DNA from: a bacterium
GTDB lineage: Bacteria; Patescibacteriota; Microgenomatia; UBA1400; UBA12108
Assembly: GCA_021788365.1 (NCBI GenBank)
Contig: JAJYKS010000002.1
Span: forward strand, 1-32,520
DNA length: 32,520 bases
Direction of reading: 5' to 3'
A model generated the notes under the pieces. It did no database searches and was not told where the DNA came from. It saw only the letters and a program-made list of their open reading frames with translations. Both the position numbers and the translations under genes were made by a program. Each line of letters opens with the position of its first letter. The stretch's first letter is position 1. Positions 3 through 21,787 of this stretch are shown piece by piece.

Positions 3-329
3 AGCCAGCGGGTTACACCCGCCAAGCTTCGCCGGCTATACAACCAGAGCCGCTGCACGCTCGCTGTTGCTGTTCGTGAGCCGTTTGGTCTGTCGGCTGT
101 CGAGTCTATGGCGTGTGGCACACCCGTGGTAGCAGTCGACGAAGGCGGCTATCGTGAGACGGTGGTGCACGGGAAGACAGGCTACCTCGTTCCACGAGAC
201 GCTGGTATGCTCGCCGTCGCAATACAAAAAGTAGACAAGATCAAAGAGTCATCGTGCCTTGCCCACGTCCGCGCCCACTTTACTTGGTCGCGCGTCGCCA
301 AAGATACGCTGCAATTACTGCAAGGATAG
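3..329 (+). CDS. Glycosyltransferase family 4 (group 1), C-terminal fragment; 5' end outside the window
   Basis: Open frame from the window edge reads ...LAVAVREPFGLSAVESMACGTPVVAVDEGGYRETVVHGKTGYLVP, the typical GT4 C-terminal donor-binding motif (E-x7-E). The listed ORF start at 108 is internal. Confidence 0.9.
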   Translation, partial: SQRVTPAKLRRLYNQSRCTLAVAVREPFGLSAVESMACGTPVVAVDEGGYRETVVHGKTGYLVPRDAGMLAVAIQKVDKIKESSCLAHVRAHFTWSRVAKDTLQLLQG

Positions 330-3300
330 CGGCAACCCCTCCCCAGAGCCACCAGGTAGTAGCTAAATGATTCATAACATGGGCAGGTTCTTCAGAATTG
401 CTTGGTAGAGGAGTAGGTGTGGCGCTCGGTGTCGCGTCTTCGGGCACAAGTGTCGCCCCAAGAACTTCACCGGTCGCAGGCGGTACAGTACCACGCCCTA
501 CCGGAGAGGTGACGCCGTTTACCTCGGTACTAGCCCCGGCAATCGTGCCCGCAAAGGTCTGAGGACTATCTGCGGCGTTCACGGTGAACGTTTTGGTAAC
601 GCCCGCACTCTCGTTGCCGGCGAGGTCATAGGCATAGACCGTCACGTCGTAGCTGCCCACAATCGGCGAGGGGAAGAAATAGTTCCATGCCGCTGTCCCG
701 CTTGCCCGCACGATAGTTTCCGCACCACCGTCCTTCGTATAGTGCACGTCTACATAAGCTATTCCGCTCAGGGTGTCGCCGGCGCTTCCCGCGATCTCGC
801 TGCCCCACAAACCGATCTCTACGATAGGTGCAGTCACGTCGATGTTTGCAGGGTTGCTCGTGACTGCATCGGTTACACAGTTTCCTGCCAAGTCACAAAC
901 AGATGGCGATACGGTACAGGTGCTACCAACCCCCTCGGCCGTGATATCGCAGGTTGGCGAGGCGTAGGTCGCGGGGAGATTGGTATCGGTGTAGCTGAAG
1001 ACGCTCGTCTGCGGCGTGTTGTGCCATCCGGCAAAAGTACTTTTATCCGCCAAAGTGGGAGCGATAGAGTCATATGTGATGTCGCAGGGAGCGCTCCATG
1101 GGGAATAGTTGCCAGCATTGTCTTTTGCCCGCACAGAGATGGTATGCAGTCCTTCATTCAAAGAGCCGCGATACTGCGACGCGGTGAAAAATGTCTGCCA
1201 GTGTCCGCGACCCGTGCCGATTGGGAAGGGGTAGTCTATCGCGTAATCGTAGCCAGCGATACCACTCCCGCCGTCCGTGGCATCGCTCCAGTCCACCGTC
1301 TCCAGTTTGCTGTTTGTATAGCCGCCACAGGTGACAGTGGGAGAGAGGAATCCGAGCATTGTAGGGGTCGTTGGCGGGATGGTGTCTACGGTTAGAGCAG
1401 AAGAGGTCGTCACCCCGCCGGTATTGCCGGCTCTATCTTCGGCGTAAACCTCCATCTTCCATTGCCCGTCGGTGAGAGTAGTCGAGACACCGAGCACATT
1501 GCCGATCCACGCGTAGCTGCCGACAGGCGCAGAAAGCGCGTCGTACATGCGCTGCCAGTAGCCCTTTATTCCGCTGCCCGTGTCGCTACTTCCCGTCCAA
1601 TTCCAAGTTTGGGAAAGCAGGTTCGTGGGGTTTGGCGCTGTCACCGGACTCCCCGGAGCAGTCGGACTGGTCATTGGTGTCGAGTATTCCGCGTACGGGT
1701 TCGTCGCGAGTGCATTCCCGGCCAGGTCGTGTACTCCCTGTACACCCCACATTTGTTCCGGCGAGATATACCAGCCTGGCGTGATAAAGGTGATGGTTGC
1801 CGTGTAGCTCTCCCGGTCATAGGCTACGGTTGCGTGGCCCGTAAGTGGCCCGCTGCCGCCCTCCCCAGGCCAGTTTTGCAGAAAATAATTGGCCGGATCC
1901 GTTGCCTCTCCCTCCACGACCGGCTCGCTATATATCGCGGTAAACGCGGTGGTCGAGGGTCCTGGTGGCCCAAACGATAGGTCGACCTTGGGCGGTGTGC
2001 TATCCACAACTAGCGACCACGGCTCACTCCAGGCACTACAGTTATCGGCGCTATCGCATGCCTGTACCGACCACATATAGGTGTGGTCCGCGCTCCCGCC
2101 GGCGGGAATATACGAATTGGTGCCAGTCGCGACTGGGCCATAGCTTCCGCTCTCCCAGGTACTTCTGTATTGGTAGGTCACGGGACCGCTCGGGTCGGTT
2201 TCGTCGCTCCAATCGAGTACCAGTCCCGCCGTCGGGATATGCGTCCCATTGGCCGGGGAGAGTAAGGTGGGTACGGGGGGTGGTGTCACATCTAGCTCCG
2301 ATATTGTACTAAGACCGACGGTGTCGTGGTTATAAGTCAGGGAAAACGTGTGCCCGCCGGAGGGGAGGGGGAGGGTCTCCCGCTGTACGCCGCCGCCCGC
2401 GTCATAGAAATACACGTCCAGTGAGCCGTCACCTCCCGTAGTTGTCAGGCGATAGTTTCCACTTGCTGGTTTTGGTACATAGGCGAGGCGTGCAGAAATA
2501 GTCGCCGAGCCATCCACGTCATCGCTCAAACTTTCGTCGAAAATATGTGACGGAACGGCGCTGCCACCCTCATCGTACAAAGTCGTAGTTGTCCCCGCAT
2601 TGGTGACGAAGAGCATATATGACAGGTCCGTGTGGGACGGTGTATATACGCCGACAGTTTGCACGCCAGAAGTTGTGGCGGTAAGCGACGTGTGTGTCTC
2701 GTCATTTGGATCCAGGATATCGATGGTATCCGCCGTTGATCCCGTCCCCACTACAAAGTGCCCGGGGAGGCCGAGGATGCTGGGAGTGGTAAGTGCAGTC
2801 GGATCATACGGCGTGCGGCTATACTCCAGGGATACAGCCGAATGACTGGCTTCCTCCGACTGCTTCGACAGGCGCGAGATTGCGAGCCAGTTTAGGAGAC
2901 CACCGCCCACATATCCGTCCGGCTGCGCCTTCAGCCAATCATTAAGTGTGTCAGGATTTGCCACGCCACCATCCGGCATCTCTACGCTGTTATGCTGTAA
3001 TATCATCGCCGCAGAGGTTAGCGCGCATCCCCACCGGTCTATCCCCATCTTCCCCGGCGCCCACGTCCCCGCCGAATCATATTCCTTGCTCCCCCACGCT
3101 GCATCCTTCTGTGAAAGGTAGGGGAAAACCGAACTTAAAAGCGTAGATTTTACATAATCAAGTTCAATGCGTGCATATCCAGACTGAGAAGAATCAGCAA
3201 TTTCTGGATTACCGATCCAGATATACTTAGGTCTTCTGGTGGTGGACTGAGTTGTGTATGGAGACGAATTATCCAATGTAAAAGTGTATTTATCCTCTTT

Positions 3301-3837
3301 GTATTCAACATGTAGCGTATGCCAGCCGGATTGTGAAGCGTTTTCTACTAGAAAGGAAGATAAATTTGAGTTAGTGCAAACATCATTTGGACAAAATGCT
3401 ACGGGGAATCCCCAAGTTCCGGAAGAATTATACGGCCACAGCACAAACACATACGAAGTCGAATCAACAGGTATATTCCTCAATGCGAGATAACTATCAG
3501 TTACACCTATCCCGGCACCCTGAACAAACGCGTCGCCCAACACTCGAAAACGAATATCTATACCAACATCCATGCTTGGCAACGGATTACGCAATATTAA
3601 ATATGATGTCTGAACCGAGTTAACATTATAAGTGGTTAAATAACCTAAATTTAGATCACTTACAAGTTGCGAAGAATCCCCTGACAACACATTCCAATTT
3701 GCAAGAGTGGAAGTATTAAAGTTTTCATCTAAAATAAGCGTAGAAGCACTAGCCTTGCGCGGAGTAACAAAAAGTAAGGAAAATAGCGTAACAAATAAAA
3801 ACGATATTAAAAATAATCTATTTTTAATTAGATACAT
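280..3837 (-). CDS. Large secreted, membrane-anchored protein: signal peptide, LamG/concanavalin-like N-terminal region, C39-like (papain-fold) cysteine peptidase domain, multiple Ig/Fn3-like repeats, C-terminal TM
   Basis: N-terminal hydrophobic signal (MYLIKNRLFLISFLFVTLFSLLFVTP). C39-like Cys/His/Asp motifs: DRWGCALTSAAMIL, PGHFVVGTG, DILDPND. Repeated 'D.TPP..P' and 'AGN.S' Ig-like repeats. C-terminal WWLWGGVAAILAVIAAYLWRRATK. The ORF track starts at 3858, but the internal ATG at 3837 is a better signal-peptide start and avoids overlap with the divergent gene at 3844. Confidence 0.82.
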   Translation of the reverse strand: MYLIKNRLFLISFLFVTLFSLLFVTPRKASASTLILDENFNTSTLANWNVLSGDSSQLVSDLNLGYLTTYNVNSVQTSYLILRNPLPSMDVGIDIRFRVLGDAFVQGAGIGVTDSYLALRNIPVDSTSYVFVLWPYNSSGTWGFPVAFCPNDVCTNSNLSSFLVENASQSGWHTLHVEYKEDKYTFTLDNSSPYTTQSTTRRPKYIWIGNPEIADSSQSGYARIELDYVKSTLLSSVFPYLSQKDAAWGSKEYDSAGTWAPGKMGIDRWGCALTSAAMILQHNSVEMPDGGVANPDTLNDWLKAQPDGYVGGGLLNWLAISRLSKQSEEASHSAVSLEYSRTPYDPTALTTPSILGLPGHFVVGTGSTADTIDILDPNDETHTSLTATTSGVQTVGVYTPSHTDLSYMLFVTNAGTTTTLYDEGGSAVPSHIFDESLSDDVDGSATISARLAYVPKPASGNYRLTTTGGDGSLDVYFYDAGGGVQRETLPLPSGGHTFSLTYNHDTVGLSTISELDVTPPPVPTLLSPANGTHIPTAGLVLDWSDETDPSGPVTYQYRSTWESGSYGPVATGTNSYIPAGGSADHTYMWSVQACDSADNCSAWSEPWSLVVDSTPPKVDLSFGPPGPSTTAFTAIYSEPVVEGEATDPANYFLQNWPGEGGSGPLTGHATVAYDRESYTATITFITPGWYISPEQMWGVQGVHDLAGNALATNPYAEYSTPMTSPTAPGSPVTAPNPTNLLSQTWNWTGSSDTGSGIKGYWQRMYDALSAPVGSYAWIGNVLGVSTTLTDGQWKMEVYAEDRAGNTGGVTTSSALTVDTIPPTTPTMLGFLSPTVTCGGYTNSKLETVDWSDATDGGSGIAGYDYAIDYPFPIGTGRGHWQTFFTASQYRGSLNEGLHTISVRAKDNAGNYSPWSAPCDITYDSIAPTLADKSTFAGWHNTPQTSVFSYTDTNLPATYASPTCDITAEGVGSTCTVSPSVCDLAGNCVTDAVTSNPANIDVTAPIVEIGLWGSEIAGSAGDTLSGIAYVDVHYTKDGGAETIVRASGTAAWNYFFPSPIVGSYDVTVYAYDLAGNESAGVTKTFTVNAADSPQTFAGTIAGASTEVNGVTSPVGRGTVPPATGEVLGATLVPEDATPSATPTPLPSNSEEPAHVMNHLATTWWLWGGVAAILAVIAAYLWRRATK

Positions 3838-3843
3838 ATTAAT

Positions 3844-4731
3844 ATGATTACAAAACATAGCGAAAAGTCAAGCATATCTATTGTCACGGTCACGTACAAC
3901 TCATCAACGGTTATTGAAAAATACCTGCAATCACTGGCCAAAGATAAGGAAATAATTCGTGAATTAATCTTGGTAGAAAACAACTCTCCAGATAAGGAAA
4001 TAACAAAGCAAAAAATCGAAAAATATCAGAAAAAAGGTCAACTAAATATCAAATATATTAGCATGAAGGAAAATCTGGGATTTGCAAAAAGTTGTAATTA
4101 TGGAAGTAAAAGTGCGACCGCAGATTTTATCTTATTCCTCAATCCTGATACGGAAATCAAGAATAATTCTCTAAAGACATTATATTCGGATGCGATTAAA
4201 CTAAATGCCGATCTTATTGGTGGAAAATGTGTTAAAAAAAATGGCGAACGCCATAACACTATAGTACACAAACCTACATTAAATATAGGACTTTTTGAAT
4301 TTTCTAATCTAGGAAAACTATTCAATTATAGTGGTGGCCATAGATGCTTTTACTACCTCGACAATAACAAAATTTACAACGCAAAAAAAGACGTAAGGGT
4401 AGATGCGTTAGGTGGCGCATTTCTAATGGCTAATAAAATAGCTTTCAAAAAATTGCATGGCTTTGATGAACGATTTTTTATGTACCTGGAGGATGTCGAC
4501 TTAGGGGTTAGGGCGAATGAAAACAATATGAACGTTATATATTGTCCACACTCCGTGATATTTCATGTGGGAGGGGCTAGCAGCAAGAACAAATACAAAA
4601 TTATGCACCAGGCGTGGTATGACTCACGAAAGGTATATTACAAAAAACATTTCGGCACTATTGTAAATCTGATAATTCAACCAATTTTCATCCTAGATGA
4701 ATATTTATTGAAAATGCTCAGGCCACAATGA
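3844..4731 (+). CDS. Glycosyltransferase family 2 (rhamnosyltransferase-like)
   Basis: SISIVTVTYNSSTVIEKYLQSL, NLGFAKSCNYG, FLNPDTEI, ALGGAFLMANKIAFKKLHGFDERFFMYLEDVDLGVRA: GT2 hallmarks. AT-rich relative to flanks. Confidence 0.92.
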   Translation: MITKHSEKSSISIVTVTYNSSTVIEKYLQSLAKDKEIIRELILVENNSPDKEITKQKIEKYQKKGQLNIKYISMKENLGFAKSCNYGSKSATADFILFLNPDTEIKNNSLKTLYSDAIKLNADLIGGKCVKKNGERHNTIVHKPTLNIGLFEFSNLGKLFNYSGGHRCFYYLDNNKIYNAKKDVRVDALGGAFLMANKIAFKKLHGFDERFFMYLEDVDLGVRANENNMNVIYCPHSVIFHVGGASSKNKYKIMHQAWYDSRKVYYKKHFGTIVNLIIQPIFILDEYLLKMLRPQ

Positions 4732-15762: not shown

Positions 15763-18700
15763 ATGCTGAAAAAGTTTCTGGTTGTAGCTAGTTTACTACT
15801 CATTTCCGCATCCACCGTTCACGCTTCTTTTTTCGACACGATTGCCAAAGAGGTACAAAATTTGTTTCCCACCCCGACAGCCGCGTCCACCGTCAGTGCA
15901 TCAAGTGCGCCAGAGGCCGTGCTTGGCAGCGGCTCATACAACACCGAAGCTCCCTCCATCTATATAAATGGCAGCAACAGCGCCTACAGTAGCGGCGGCC
16001 TCATAACCCAAGCGGTGACAGACGATCCCGGCATATTTATTTCTGGATACAAACTCCCGGCAGAGCTGCAGATAAAAATATACCGAGCCTCAGAAAATGA
16101 CCTCTTTAACTATTTGGTACACGACAAGGACTACAAGCAGCTCCACCCCCACATAGACACGTCGTCCATGACGGTACAGGGGACAGCCACGATCTCGCTT
16201 ACGTCTGATGCAAATGGCAATTACCAGAGTACCTATCACGCCTTGCCGTTTAGCGGCATGGGCATGTGGTACTTGGAGATTGCCGGTGAGAATGTACAGA
16301 CAACGGCGTTTATCTTGCGCTCTGGTCATGGAGTGTTTACCTCCGAAGAAGATAACACGCTGCTCTTTTGGGGAGAGCGGTTCGACAATATGCGCTCAAT
16401 CGGCGCAGGTGGGACGTTAAAAACATATAGTGTCCTCGACACGCCAAAGGAGCTCAGCAGCGTTTCGTACGACGATGCAGGGACCGCGCGCACACCACTC
16501 ACCGATCAGGCAGACTTTGCGATTTCACAGCTTGGCGATGACATTGCGCTCGTACCGCTAAATCTAACCTATCTCAATTCTGGCTACAACTACGACCAGT
16601 TCCGCCCGCGCGCTTTGAGCGACCACTACTTTACCTTTGTCGATCGCCCTGTCTATCAGCCGGGCGACAAGCTCTACTTCAAGTCGGTCATTCGGACCGA
16701 CAACGACGCCCAATATTCGATCCCCACCGGCGTTGCCTACGCAACGCTCTTTGAGAACAACAACAAACTCCAAGAGTTAACCATTCCCATTTCAGCGGAC
16801 GGTACGATCGACGGCACCATCAGTTTACCCGCAGACATAAAAACAGGCTGGTACACGCTGCAAGTGCAGACATCAGCCGACCGTGTGCAGTCGTCAGGGA
16901 GTCAGGGCTATCCGTCGTATGGCGAGTACACCGGCGTCTCAAACTACTCATCCGCCTATTTCCAGGTCCAGTACTATCGCAAGCCAGAGGCTAGTCTCGA
17001 CATAGAGAGCAACCGCAACGACCTGATCGCGGGCTCGCCACTCACGGTGACACTCGACGGGAGCTACTACAGTGGCGCACCGCTCATGTCGCAGGGTATC
17101 ACTTACACCGTACGCGCAGCCGATTATTACGAATATGCCTACTTGAGCGACTACGAGCAGTACAAGAGCAACATGAGCGACGACTACCAATATGGTGGCT
17201 GGTATGGAACGCATGACATCAAAAAGGGCACGGTATATCTCGACAAAAATGGCAAAGCACAAATAGACATACCGACAACGCTAAACTACGACAACCAGGG
17301 CAAGCCGCAGGTATTTATCGTAGAGGCGACGCTCGAAGATGGCTCGCAGGACCCGCTCTTCGCTCGCAAAAACATCCTCGTCCGACCAGGTCAGTTCGGC
17401 ATTTTTGCAACCGATTACACCTGGAGTGCACAGGTTAATAAAGAGGTTCGATTACCGGTCGTGACAGTCCCCTATGAGACCGGGACAAAAATTACCGCCA
17501 CCTCATTGCAAGCCAAGCTGACACTCCATCAGTGGAACAAAATAGTCGACTCGAATGAGAAGTATCCGCGCTACGAAGAAAAAGTAACCGACCTGGGGGG
17601 AGCGCAATTCTCGACAGACAACTTCGGCCACGGGACCTATACGTTTACCCCACAAGCCGAGGGTTCGTATCAAATCCTGATAAGCGGCACCGATGCGCTC
17701 GGAAACAAGGTTAGCAAAGAATTTTACGTCTACGCGTCGAGTTCTAGCTACTCGGTTTACATCCCTGGCATGTCAGAAGAGTCGCTGTCCGTCGCGACCG
17801 ATCGTAAAAAATATACTCCCGGCGAGTCGGCGAATATCACGATAACCTCATCCATCCCCGACCGAGACGTCCTGCTCTCCGTAGAGCGGGGCTACGAGCG
17901 GCGATTCCAGATAGTAAAAATGAGCGGGACCACGGGCACGGTATCGCTACCCATAATCACGTCGGATCAGCCGAACATCTATCTCGCCGCCTATGGCTTC
18001 AGCAAATATCGGCTAGATCGCGCCCAGACAGCGCTATCCATAGACACGGCCGACAAGAAGATGGTCGTGTCACTCGTGCCGGACAAAACAGTATACGGAC
18101 CGGGCGAAACGATGAAACTCGATATTACAACCACTGACGCAAACGGGCATCCGCTCTCGGCCAACGTCGCCGTATGGGCGGTGGACAAAGCTATTTTCGC
18201 CTTGACTGATAGTCGACTAGGGGACATCTTCAAGACATTTTGGGGTGATCGGGTAGACTCGACCTCCACCTCCCACTCACTGCGTGGCATACTGGTGCAG
18301 ACGGCCGAGCGCGGTGGCGGGTGTTTTGTGGGCGACACGGCAGTGACACTCGCAAATGGGAGTACCGCGCTGATAAAAGATATAAAAGTCGGGCAAGAAA
18401 TCCGCACGCTAACCGATCTTGGCACCACGGTAAACGCTCGGGTGAGCGCAGTAACGCATACCGAAGATGATGGCTACATGGTGATAAACGGCGTGCTCCG
18501 CGTCACCCCCGACCACCTCATTAACGTAAATGGCACGTGGCGTGAGGCAGGACAAGCGCAGATTGGAGATTATCTAAGTACGATCTCAGGTAGTGAAATC
18601 ATCTCCTCGCTGAGCTACGAGGGGCAAAAAACAGAGGTGTACAACCTAACGGTCGACCGTGAGCACACATTCCTCGCCGATGGCATATGGGTTCACAACG

Positions 18701-20940
18701 AGAAGGGCATGGACCGCACCATCTTTAAGGACGTGGCATACTGGAACCCCAACGTTCGCACGGGGAGCGACGGCAAGGCCACAATAACCGCAAAGCTACC
18801 CGACAACCTAACCACCTGGACCATTGCGGGTGTGGGCAACACAACCGCAACGGCAGTCGGTCAAAGCACCGTCGACATCCAGGTAAACAAAGACCTCGTC
18901 GTAAAGCCGATCGTCCCCAACCTTGTGCGGGTCGGCGACAAACTAACGCTCTCGGCGATTGCGCGTAACTTTACCGAGGTGAGTGGGCTATACAACATTG
19001 GACTGCAGCTAACCGGCGGCACCATCGACGGCCCCGCAGCCTCCCAGATCACGCTCGCCGGAAAGAGCTCGGAGCAAGGGTACTGGTCTGTTACACCCGA
19101 TGCGGCGGCAAAAGAGTTGAAATATACCATGGGTGTCGAGCTGGCAGACAACAAGAACGTTCGTGACACGGTGACAGGAGTGATACCCGTAGAGCCGTTT
19201 GGCTTTAGCGAAAAAGATGCACAGTTCCAGATAGGCGACGCAAGCTACACGCTTACCTTGCCTGCGGACGCAAAAAACACGAGCTCACAGGTCACGCTCT
19301 ATCTGGCGCCCTCACTCGTGACTTCTCTCCAGTCGTCGATGCACTATTTGTTGCAGTACCCTTACGGGTGTGTTGAGCAGCTAACGAGTCGCCTGGTACC
19401 CGCACTGCTAGCCAAGGGCAACGCCGCGCTATTTGCCGACGCTGCGGCAGGCATAAACCTGGACACCTACATAAAAGACGGCATCAGCAAAATCAACGAA
19501 GCGCACGACATCTGGACTGGGTGGGGCTGGTGGAGTCACGGGAACGTCACCCCCTTCGTGACAAGTTATGTCCTCGAAGCCTATCAGGATGCGCAAAAGC
19601 TTGGGTACGGAGCCGATGTGAGCGACCCCATTACAACAGGTCTGAATTACCTCGAGCACCAAACCAATGGGCAATCAATGGGGAACGAAGAACGTATTAC
19701 CCGTAGGTACGGACTTTCACTCTTCAAGAAGACGACGGCAATCCCCGGGCCCGACGGCAACCTAGCTGACCTAGACCCTGACCTGATCGCCATGCACGTC
19801 ATAACAAGTGTCAATTATGGTGACAAAAGCGGCGTGGAAAATGGCGTAAACGCCTTGCTGGCGACGGCTCAAACCGAAGGCAATACCGTGTACTGGAAAG
19901 CAGGCAACAGTAGCCGTCTCGGCTCGATTGGCGCCTCAACGGCCTGGGCTGTACGTGCGCTGACAGCCGCTGGGGCAGATCAGGGGACTGCCGCAAAAGG
20001 GTTGCAATATCTTCTTAAGAATCACCACACCGACTACTGGTACAACTCTTACGCAACGGTGCTCACCGCGCGCGCCATCCTTGCAGTCTACACGGCAAAC
20101 GGCGAGTCCGCACCTGACTATACCTACACCGTGAAACTGGGAAACAAGGTAGTAAAAACCGCCCGTGTCACCTCGGCAACACAAGCACTAAAGCCAATCA
20201 CCCTGTCGATACATGATTTGGCGGCAGGTGAAAATACAGTTACCGTCACGCGTACAGGGACGGGCCAGCTCTACTCGACCCTCTCGAGCGACCTCTTTAG
20301 GACAGATCCACACGCAGGTGCCGTGAGCCACGGGCTCTCGCTCAAGCGCGCCTACATAAATGACCGCAACCCAGACCGTACGATAGCGCTGGGCGACATT
20401 GCGAGAGTGGAGTTTACCGTGAGCGGTCTAGGCGCCGGCAGTCAGTATCTCGTTATAGAAGATCAGCTTCCTGCTGGCCTCGTCCCGATAAATGATACCT
20501 TTACCAATGAGCAGTTTAGTACGGATAACGGCGCCCCGAGTGACTACCGTGTGAGCAAAGAATTCACAAAAAATGGTGCCAACCTCGTCGTCTATCAAAC
20601 ACAGATCGGTGGGGGCGTCTACTCGTACAAAGCTCGTGTGGTGAGTATGGGCGATTTCCAGGCACCTCCCGCAGTTGCCTCGCTCATGTACAGTCCCGAG
20701 GTAAACGGAAGAACGGTGGTCTCAAATGTACACATCGACTCCGAATCCAAACTCCTACCAGGGAGAGTAGCACAGTCGATCGCAAAGGGAGTATCGCAGT
20801 GGCTATACTATGGTATAGGAGTACTTGTAGTAGTGGTTGGCATCGTAGGATATTTCGTATATCGCCACCGCCGCAAGGTGAAACAAAATGTTGAAGATAA
20901 CCCACAAACTCCACCTGATGGCACGCCTACTACCGTATAA
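15763..20940 (+). CDS. Bacterial alpha-2-macroglobulin family protein with thioester and embedded Hint (intein-like) domain; signal peptide and C-terminal TM
   Basis: Signal peptide MLKKFLVVASLLLISASTVHA; DRPVYQPGDKLYFKSVIR (MG domain); ANVAVWAVDKAIFAL; TIFKDVAYWNPNVRTGSDGKATITAKLPDNLTTWTI (A2M domain); YPYGCVEQLTSRLVPALLA (thioester CxEQ); C-terminal WLYYGIGVLVVVVGIVGYFVYRHRRK. Confidence 0.96.
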   Translation: MLKKFLVVASLLLISASTVHASFFDTIAKEVQNLFPTPTAASTVSASSAPEAVLGSGSYNTEAPSIYINGSNSAYSSGGLITQAVTDDPGIFISGYKLPAELQIKIYRASENDLFNYLVHDKDYKQLHPHIDTSSMTVQGTATISLTSDANGNYQSTYHALPFSGMGMWYLEIAGENVQTTAFILRSGHGVFTSEEDNTLLFWGERFDNMRSIGAGGTLKTYSVLDTPKELSSVSYDDAGTARTPLTDQADFAISQLGDDIALVPLNLTYLNSGYNYDQFRPRALSDHYFTFVDRPVYQPGDKLYFKSVIRTDNDAQYSIPTGVAYATLFENNNKLQELTIPISADGTIDGTISLPADIKTGWYTLQVQTSADRVQSSGSQGYPSYGEYTGVSNYSSAYFQVQYYRKPEASLDIESNRNDLIAGSPLTVTLDGSYYSGAPLMSQGITYTVRAADYYEYAYLSDYEQYKSNMSDDYQYGGWYGTHDIKKGTVYLDKNGKAQIDIPTTLNYDNQGKPQVFIVEATLEDGSQDPLFARKNILVRPGQFGIFATDYTWSAQVNKEVRLPVVTVPYETGTKITATSLQAKLTLHQWNKIVDSNEKYPRYEEKVTDLGGAQFSTDNFGHGTYTFTPQAEGSYQILISGTDALGNKVSKEFYVYASSSSYSVYIPGMSEESLSVATDRKKYTPGESANITITSSIPDRDVLLSVERGYERRFQIVKMSGTTGTVSLPIITSDQPNIYLAAYGFSKYRLDRAQTALSIDTADKKMVVSLVPDKTVYGPGETMKLDITTTDANGHPLSANVAVWAVDKAIFALTDSRLGDIFKTFWGDRVDSTSTSHSLRGILVQTAERGGGCFVGDTAVTLANGSTALIKDIKVGQEIRTLTDLGTTVNARVSAVTHTEDDGYMVINGVLRVTPDHLINVNGTWREAGQAQIGDYLSTISGSEIISSLSYEGQKTEVYNLTVDREHTFLADGIWVHNEKGMDRTIFKDVAYWNPNVRTGSDGKATITAKLPDNLTTWTIAGVGNTTATAVGQSTVDIQVNKDLVVKPIVPNLVRVGDKLTLSAIARNFTEVSGLYNIGLQLTGGTIDGPAASQITLAGKSSEQGYWSVTPDAAAKELKYTMGVELADNKNVRDTVTGVIPVEPFGFSEKDAQFQIGDASYTLTLPADAKNTSSQVTLYLAPSLVTSLQSSMHYLLQYPYGCVEQLTSRLVPALLAKGNAALFADAAAGINLDTYIKDGISKINEAHDIWTGWGWWSHGNVTPFVTSYVLEAYQDAQKLGYGADVSDPITTGLNYLEHQTNGQSMGNEERITRRYGLSLFKKTTAIPGPDGNLADLDPDLIAMHVITSVNYGDKSGVENGVNALLATAQTEGNTVYWKAGNSSRLGSIGASTAWAVRALTAAGADQGTAAKGLQYLLKNHHTDYWYNSYATVLTARAILAVYTANGESAPDYTYTVKLGNKVVKTARVTSATQALKPITLSIHDLAAGENTVTVTRTGTGQLYSTLSSDLFRTDPHAGAVSHGLSLKRAYINDRNPDRTIALGDIARVEFTVSGLGAGSQYLVIEDQLPAGLVPINDTFTNEQFSTDNGAPSDYRVSKEFTKNGANLVVYQTQIGGGVYSYKARVVSMGDFQAPPAVASLMYSPEVNGRTVVSNVHIDSESKLLPGRVAQSIAKGVSQWLYYGIGVLVVVVGIVGYFVYRHRRKVKQNVEDNPQTPPDGTPTTV
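18322..18699 (+). other. Hint / bacterial intein-like (BIL) domain inside the A2M (residues 854-979)
   Basis: CFVGDTAVTLANGSTALIKDIKVGQEIRT (N-terminal block A), VTPDHLINVNGTW (TxxH block B), EVYNLTVDREHTFLADGIWVHN (blocks F/G ending His-Asn). +1 residue is Glu, not C/S/T. Confidence 0.93.
19369..19380 (+). other. Thioester motif CVEQ of the A2M
   Basis: tgt gtt gag cag; Cys1203-Val-Glu-Gln. Confidence 0.95.
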
Positions 20941-21787
20941 GTACTTGCTGCTTGGCCTCCTAGCGCTCGCTATCTTTTACGGCGCGATACGCGCCTTGCA
21001 CCCGTCCGCCCAATCTACTGACACCAGTACGCCATTTCCCGTCACCCACTACCGCATGGCGGACGTCCAGGGAGGTATAGCGAGCTACCCGCCGCGTAGT
21101 GGCGACAGTCCGCCAGTTGTGCGGGGCGGTGTAGTCTCGCATCACTTACTAGCAGAGCGCTACATCGCACGCTATTTTCAGAATTTGAGTGGCCATGCAT
21201 ATCGGCAGGTTGTGCTCATAGGACCCAATCATGCAAACGCAGGGGTAAGCGACGTCATAACCTCAACGCGTCGCGACTGGGACACCCCGTACGGCGTCGT
21301 ACATGTTGCACGGGTGCTCCCGGAGCTCCCCCAGGGAGACGCGGTTATGGCCGGCGACCACGCACTCGAGGTCCTTATGCCATACATAAAGGTGTATCTA
21401 CCGCAAGCATCAGTAATCCCCATCCTCATAAAAAGTAGTGTGACGGAAAACGAGCTTAATAGTCTCGTGGTAATACTGAGTGGCCTCGTGGGGAGCGATA
21501 CGCTCGTCTTGGTCTCAAGTGACTTCTCACACTACTTATCGGAGGAAGACGCCTTTGCACACGACACAATAGCTCTCTCGGCAATAGAGAGACGTGACTA
21601 TGCCTTTTTGGCTCCTGTTCGAGCAGATTATCTCGACAGTCCCGGGTCGGTAATCGTCATGCTCAAGCTCATGGACGAAATTGGCGCGAACAAGCTACAG
21701 GTTTTTGCCCACGCGAGCGCCGCAACAATAGCCAACACTCCAGGGGCACCAACGACAACGTATTACTTTCTTAACGTCTATGAATAA
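20918..21787 (+). CDS. MEMO family protein (AmmeMemoRadiSam system protein B-like), N-terminal TM
   Basis: GGVVSHHLLA, VVLIGPNHANAG, VLVSSDFSHYLSEEDA. ATG at 20918 overlaps the A2M 3' end. Confidence 0.9.
   Translation: MARLLPYKYLLLGLLALAIFYGAIRALHPSAQSTDTSTPFPVTHYRMADVQGGIASYPPRSGDSPPVVRGGVVSHHLLAERYIARYFQNLSGHAYRQVVLIGPNHANAGVSDVITSTRRDWDTPYGVVHVARVLPELPQGDAVMAGDHALEVLMPYIKVYLPQASVIPILIKSSVTENELNSLVVILSGLVGSDTLVLVSSDFSHYLSEEDAFAHDTIALSAIERRDYAFLAPVRADYLDSPGSVIVMLKLMDEIGANKLQVFAHASAATIANTPGAPTTTYYFLNVYE

Follow-up and report, generated by a model that had tools for sequence, protein, structure and literature searches.

We found that the bait region of an alpha-2-macroglobulin (A2M), a protease-trap protein, from a Patescibacterial genome holds an A-type bacterial intein-like (BIL) domain, an intact Hint whose catalytic residues are invariant throughout a family of similar proteins (hereafter Hint-A2Ms). 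We propose that this domain may cut its host chain from within. The window, i.e. the whole 32,520-nucleotide stretch of DNA that was analysed, belongs to a tiny bacterium of the UBA12108 lineage in the Microgenomatia (assembly GCA_021788365.1, contig JAJYKS010000002.1, positions 1 to 32,520; features are on the forward strand unless stated).

The A2M gene occupies positions 15763 to 20940 as a single uninterrupted frame of 1725 aa. Its product was identified from the ORF, Pfam and Foldseek as a Hint-containing bacterial A2M, secreted, anchored at its C-terminus and bearing a thioester. The N-terminal signal peptide (MLKKFLVVASLLLISASTVHA, 15763-15825) and the C-terminal transmembrane anchor (residues ~1681-1702, 20803-20868) were recognised by eye. 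MG2, A2M_BRD, A2M and bMG10 all score above their Pfam gathering cut-offs, the bait-region domain A2M_BRD covering residues 675-814 (17785-18204, E 1.3e-15) and the A2M domain residues 992-1071 (18736-18975, E 3.8e-15); TED_complement scores 21.9, just under its cut-off of 22.0. The TED thioester motif itself, CVEQ, was located in the sequence at 19369-19380, its Cys being C1203. The protein has the type I bacterial A2M domain set (MG2, BRD, A2M, bMG10) together with a CxEQ thioester. When residues 545-1660 were submitted to Foldseek, the best match was native E. coli A2M (5a42, E 5e-44), and Salmonella A2M was also matched. Elsewhere in the window, positions 280-3858 of the reverse strand encode a protein of 1192 aa that contains several bacterial Ig-like domains and is likely a surface protein; glycosyltransferases lie beside it.

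Between the BRD and A2M domains, two Hint families of Pfam are detected, Vint (32.2 bits for a cut-off of 27.0) and PT-HINT (29.1 for 27.7), and the NCBIfam profile TIGR01443 (intein_Cterm) matches the isolated domain with an E value of 4e-7. Profiles, predicted fold and homolog conservation delimit the domain to C854-N979 (18322-18699). It starts with Cys854 (18322-18324), which is Hint position 1 and the nucleophile of the N-S acyl shift, contains TPDH (T915-H918, 18505-18516) as the TxxH of block B, and ends with the C-terminal cleavage pair His978-Asn979 (18694-18699). EKG follows (18700-18708), with a non-nucleophilic Glu980 at +1 and a conserved Lys981 at +2. Upstream, a Gly-rich linker (18262-18321) ends in AERGGG, with Gly at -1; it is disordered, pLDDT being mostly below 50. 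In AlphaFold models the Hint is mostly above 90 and hangs between two such linkers below 50, while the pTM of the A2M model, only 0.58, is too low to place the Hint relative to the TED. The best solved structures matched by the Hint model were BIL2 (6y75, E 3e-11) and a BIL from C. thermocellum (2lwy, target TM 0.82). The latter is also matched by sequence with the family profile, through the Hint columns alone (E 7.7e-19). A genome-wide check showed that this Hint is the sole one of its genome.

With a Hint fold, an N-terminal Cys, TxxH, a C-terminal His-Asn and no Cys, Ser or Thr at +1, the domain is an intact Hint of the A-type BIL kind. An ordinary (class 1) intein is ruled out by the +1 residue, which is Cys, Ser or Thr in 0 of 53 readable junctions; true inteins of the same phylum, caught with the same profile (L214-L216), do carry S or T there. 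A Hedgehog Hog domain, which acts on its N-part and makes no C-terminal His-Asn cut, is ruled out by the invariant His-Asn. The Pfam and NCBIfam scores and the conservation over 54 A2Ms rule out a chance motif match, and an assembly or annotation artefact is ruled out by the identical architecture found in many independent genomes. No homing endonuclease is present in the Hint of Hint-A2Ms.

To locate the insertion, a profile of 26 family A2Ms was aligned to E. coli A2M. It aligns as two blocks with the Hint columns exactly between them, flanked by residues 883 and 939 of 5a42 (~900 and 956 in 4rtd numbering). In elastase-cleaved E. coli A2M, the bait Arg923-Leu942 is disordered, and its untethering on cleavage was proposed to expose the thioester (PMC4498604). 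Since this segment falls within the gap in the profile, we conclude that the Hint occupies the bait region proper, in place of the disordered bait of E. coli A2M. The equivalent place in Hint-less A2Ms is taken by a short linker of 37-96 residues, which is usually rich in Gly. Once the Hint is subtracted, the linker of Hint-A2Ms measures 40-53 residues, which falls inside this range and suggests that the host linker was kept. In L070 (3032-3421), AEKGG stands on both sides of the Hint with 15 of 15 bases identical, which looks like a duplication of the linker during insertion. Flanking residues are repeated too in L076, L135, L059 and L131 (AEKGG before, AEKGG or EKGG after), again resembling a duplicated linker.

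A sequence-only reading of the same DNA had described a 126-aa Hint module from C854 to N979, of A type for want of a +1 nucleophile and placed in a bait-like position. All three points hold: the module is intact and in frame, its +1 residue is Glu980 in the window, and the alignment to E. coli A2M places it in the bait. The CVEQ thioester was also correctly recognised, with two corrections: 224 and not 223 residues separate N979 from the thioester Cys, and the processing domain spans only 18322-18699 rather than 18250-18760.

We collected relatives from the same order, from 384 genomes drawn evenly over the phylum and from named public genomes, the last being scanned with one peptide pattern, so that their Hint-A2M tally is a lower bound. 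At least 54 distinct Hint-A2Ms were obtained. Among the matches listed, all came from Patescibacteria bins (labelled Daviesbacteria, Microgenomates, Pacebacteria, WWE3, Collierbacteria, Peregrinibacteria, Magasanikbacteria, Uhrbacteria and others) except one bin labelled WOR-1. About 21 of the 384 genomes of the even draw were carriers. No Hint-A2M was found in 251 Chloroflexota and 113 Myxococcota genomes searched with the Hint profile, the A2M core not being detected at the matched loci, and the 76 genomes of the WOR-1 phylum yielded a single one, the WOR-1 bin itself. CxEQ is missing in 40 of 53 Hint-A2M rows, i.e. most of these proteins have no TED thioester.

A tree of 118 A2Ms was built with the Hint columns left out. 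The window protein falls in a supported clade whose 14 rows all bear a Hint, and most members of a second large clade, which is thioester-less, bear one as well. This tree requires the Hint state to have changed at least 6 times. The Hint tree broadly tracks the A2M groups, with a few apparent transfers (e.g. L055). In three A2Ms of a single family (L057, L058, L212), this bait position is taken by a different, longer Hint, of 139-141 aa in the two that are complete, which is possibly a separate insertion. In L115 and L142, a second VHN lies inside the F/G region of the Hint (VHNL or VHNF, for VYNL in relatives).

Although the median identity of the 54 Hints is only 43%, C1, T62, H65, H125 and N126 are invariant in them. 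Only 11 Hint positions are invariant in all, and the five catalytic ones are among them (P ~2e-6 under random placement). The homolog survey for degenerate Hints suggested by the sequence-only reading thus returned Cys1, TxxH and His-Asn in 54 out of 54, the catalysts of both the N- and the C-junction being conserved. Purifying selection is strong, with dN/dS of 0.025-0.083 in five usable close pairs. Part of this conservation of catalytic residues could reflect a role in folding. In the 53 readable junctions, Gly is found at -1 in 50, and Lys between +1 and +3 in all, its exact place shifting from one Hint-A2M to another (EKG, AEK, EEK, QEK, KEA). A Lys in this range is found in only 8 of 17 intact Hints from two other phyla. 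Within the same phylum, Hints outside A2Ms are sometimes degenerate and have lost catalytic residues (L102, L097, L209). Other secreted Patescibacterial proteins (L104, L105, L106, L096, L095, L211) have A-type Hints with a Lys immediately after the His-Asn (HNK), and some of these are small, 250-300 aa, with little beyond a signal, the Hint and a tail.

How could such a domain act on its host? In the reading that we favour, and to which we would give an even chance, both junctions would be processed and the A2M chain would be left cut at the bait position. Cys854 would attack the Gly853-Cys854 bond by an N-S acyl shift assisted by TxxH, after which the N-terminal half would end in a GGG thioester. 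Cyclisation at His978-Asn979 would then cut the Asn979-Glu980 bond. The Hint would be released, and two associated chains would remain, resembling a protease-cleaved A2M, presumably with the attendant switch in conformation. The A2M would be matured or triggered from within, besides or in place of the protease of an attacker. As no +1 nucleophile is present, ordinary splicing cannot follow, and chain cutting is the main outcome to be expected. Type A BILs without a +1 nucleophile indeed mainly cleave, with some splicing, in which the freed amine can act as the nucleophile towards the N-terminal thioester (PMC4031507; PMC7664689). Immediate cutting in every molecule would be a useless firing of a thioester-bearing A2M, so that some control (redox, a metal, a partner protein or resealing) must be assumed. 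The sequence-only reading had proposed triggering by self-cleavage. The intact catalytic residues agree with this, but about 40 Hint-A2Ms have lost CxEQ, so that the domain cannot serve in general to fire the TED thioester. The same reading had the N-terminal half shed from a tethered thioester half, which is unlikely: in MagD, the bait-cleaved halves stayed associated (PMC5764988).

Simple cleavage would not account for the invariant Lys after the junction. After self-removal of the Hint, the chain might instead be rejoined through attack on the GGG thioester, the nucleophile being the alpha-amine freed on the C-terminal half or the side chain of this Lys; the latter would form an isopeptide bond. 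Once mature, the protein would look like an ordinary A2M whose bait is Gly-rich, and the Hint would be a device for maturation, not a trigger. We regard this as unlikely, yet several observations point to it: a Lys kept in 53 out of 53 junctions despite its shifting place, against 8 of 17 elsewhere; the Gly at -1; a Hint-subtracted linker of Hint-less length; and the nearest fold, BIL2, which was reported to form a Lys isopeptide bond (PMC8616854). However, splicing by type A BILs is poor, cleavage being dominant (PMC4031507), and the 53 rows share ancestry and are not independent. Lys-plus-Gly is moreover common in the bait linkers of Hint-less A2Ms, so that the junction Lys may be inherited. 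The thioester on the N-terminal half might otherwise be attacked by an outside amine, on an attacking protease, on the host surface or on the bacterium's own, which would make the Hint a second acyl warhead at the bait, and the replacement of the lost thioester in homologs without CxEQ. Coupling of the N-terminal half to another group had been raised by the sequence-only reading, and is favoured to some extent by the nearby invariant Lys and by the BIL2 precedent (PMC8616854). Tagging of this kind would follow Hedgehog and BIL2, in which the N-part is passed to an outside nucleophile, and would give a use to the Hint in the roughly 40 proteins without CxEQ. It would not require the conserved His-Asn, though, and MagD, itself thioester-less, traps proteases without covalent bonds (PMC5764988). 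On the tree, Hint and thioester states offer only 3 independent pairs and no testable association, and the Hint as a substitute for the lost thioester was rejected on this count. We consider covalent tagging improbable.

Lastly, the Hint might be an inert plug, a folded domain that only shields or spaces the bait, or the fading relic of a mini-intein. Its activity is so far predicted from sequence, some degeneration is seen in other Hints of the phylum, and the Hint state changes at least 6 times on the A2M tree. Against this stand the five catalytic residues, invariant in 54 Hints at 43% median identity, the low dN/dS, the lack of a homing endonuclease and a Hint tree that broadly follows the host protein, and we find such inertness very improbable. 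Returning to chain cutting, a broader proposal can tentatively be made, which we judge possible but somewhat less than evenly probable: Hint-A2Ms may form a class in which an internal self-cutting enzyme serves as the bait. A second thioester would be formed there, and on cue the enzyme would cut the chain, or reseal it through the neighbouring Lys. Activation would be self-driven, and in thioester-less members this would be the sole acyl-transfer chemistry left.

Directly downstream of the A2M gene lies a Memo-family gene (AmmeMemoRadiSam system protein B type, 20888-21787), identified with TIGR04336 and in the neighbour survey. Its product has an N-terminal membrane anchor, and its start overlaps the A2M stop by 53 nt. 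An anchored Memo gene is found at this place in 29 of 46 Hint-A2M loci, in none of 26 Hint-less A2Ms with a thioester, and in 5 of 27 Hint-less A2Ms without one, these 5 loci forming one clade within the Hint-bearing group. A tree-based test of the Hint-Memo association had only 2 independent pairs, and the link is suggestive. A PGA_cap gene is found further downstream in the window.

The A2M superfamily (A2M, C3, TEP) is defined by its activation, in which another protease cuts the bait or its equivalent, and to our knowledge the biological purpose of BIL domains is largely unknown. If our reading is true, a conserved self-processing domain at the bait would be a different kind of activation or maturation route for this superfamily, and a concrete job for BIL domains. 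In the open-access papers searched, we found none joining a Hint domain with a macroglobulin (subscription papers could be missed). Macroglobulin, intein and bait region came together there only in a GAIN-domain context, and mentions of macroglobulins with Patescibacteria or CPR were sparse, one of them being confined to a list of references. Many Patescibacteria are thought to be attached to other cells, as the window bacterium probably is, and Hint-A2Ms hint at the way in which they handle surface proteases.

Compared with known systems, the domain shares with the A-type BIL of C. thermocellum (2lwy) the Hint fold, Cys1, TxxH, the C-terminal His-Asn, the lack of a +1 Cys, Ser or Thr, and a size of ~130 residues. 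It differs from A-type BILs by its host, an A2M, by a fixed functional site, the bait loop, retained across much of a phylum, and by its conserved junction residues, a Gly at -1 and a Lys at +1 to +3. Its closest Foldseek fold is BIL2 of Tetrahymena thermophila BUBL1 (6y75, 6tmm), for which splicing with a Lys acceptor was reported; BIL2 differs in being from a ciliate and lying between ubiquitin-like domains, whereas Hint-A2Ms show only the Lys itself (53 of 53), as read from their sequences. With the type I A2Ms E. coli YfhM (ECAM) and Salmonella SaA2M, the window protein shares domain order, bait position, CxEQ thioester and membrane association. YfhM and SaA2M, by contrast, have no Hint but a short disordered bait that serves as protease substrate, and their operon partner is PBP1c, not Memo. 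The type II A2M of P. aeruginosa, MagD, is thioester-less, as are many Hint-A2Ms, but has a plain bait and belongs to the mag operon. Complement C3, C4 and C5 offer a further parallel: they carry an extra folded domain, the anaphylatoxin, at the equivalent loop, and work as cut chains. Furin and convertases do this cutting, however; it is not autocatalytic.
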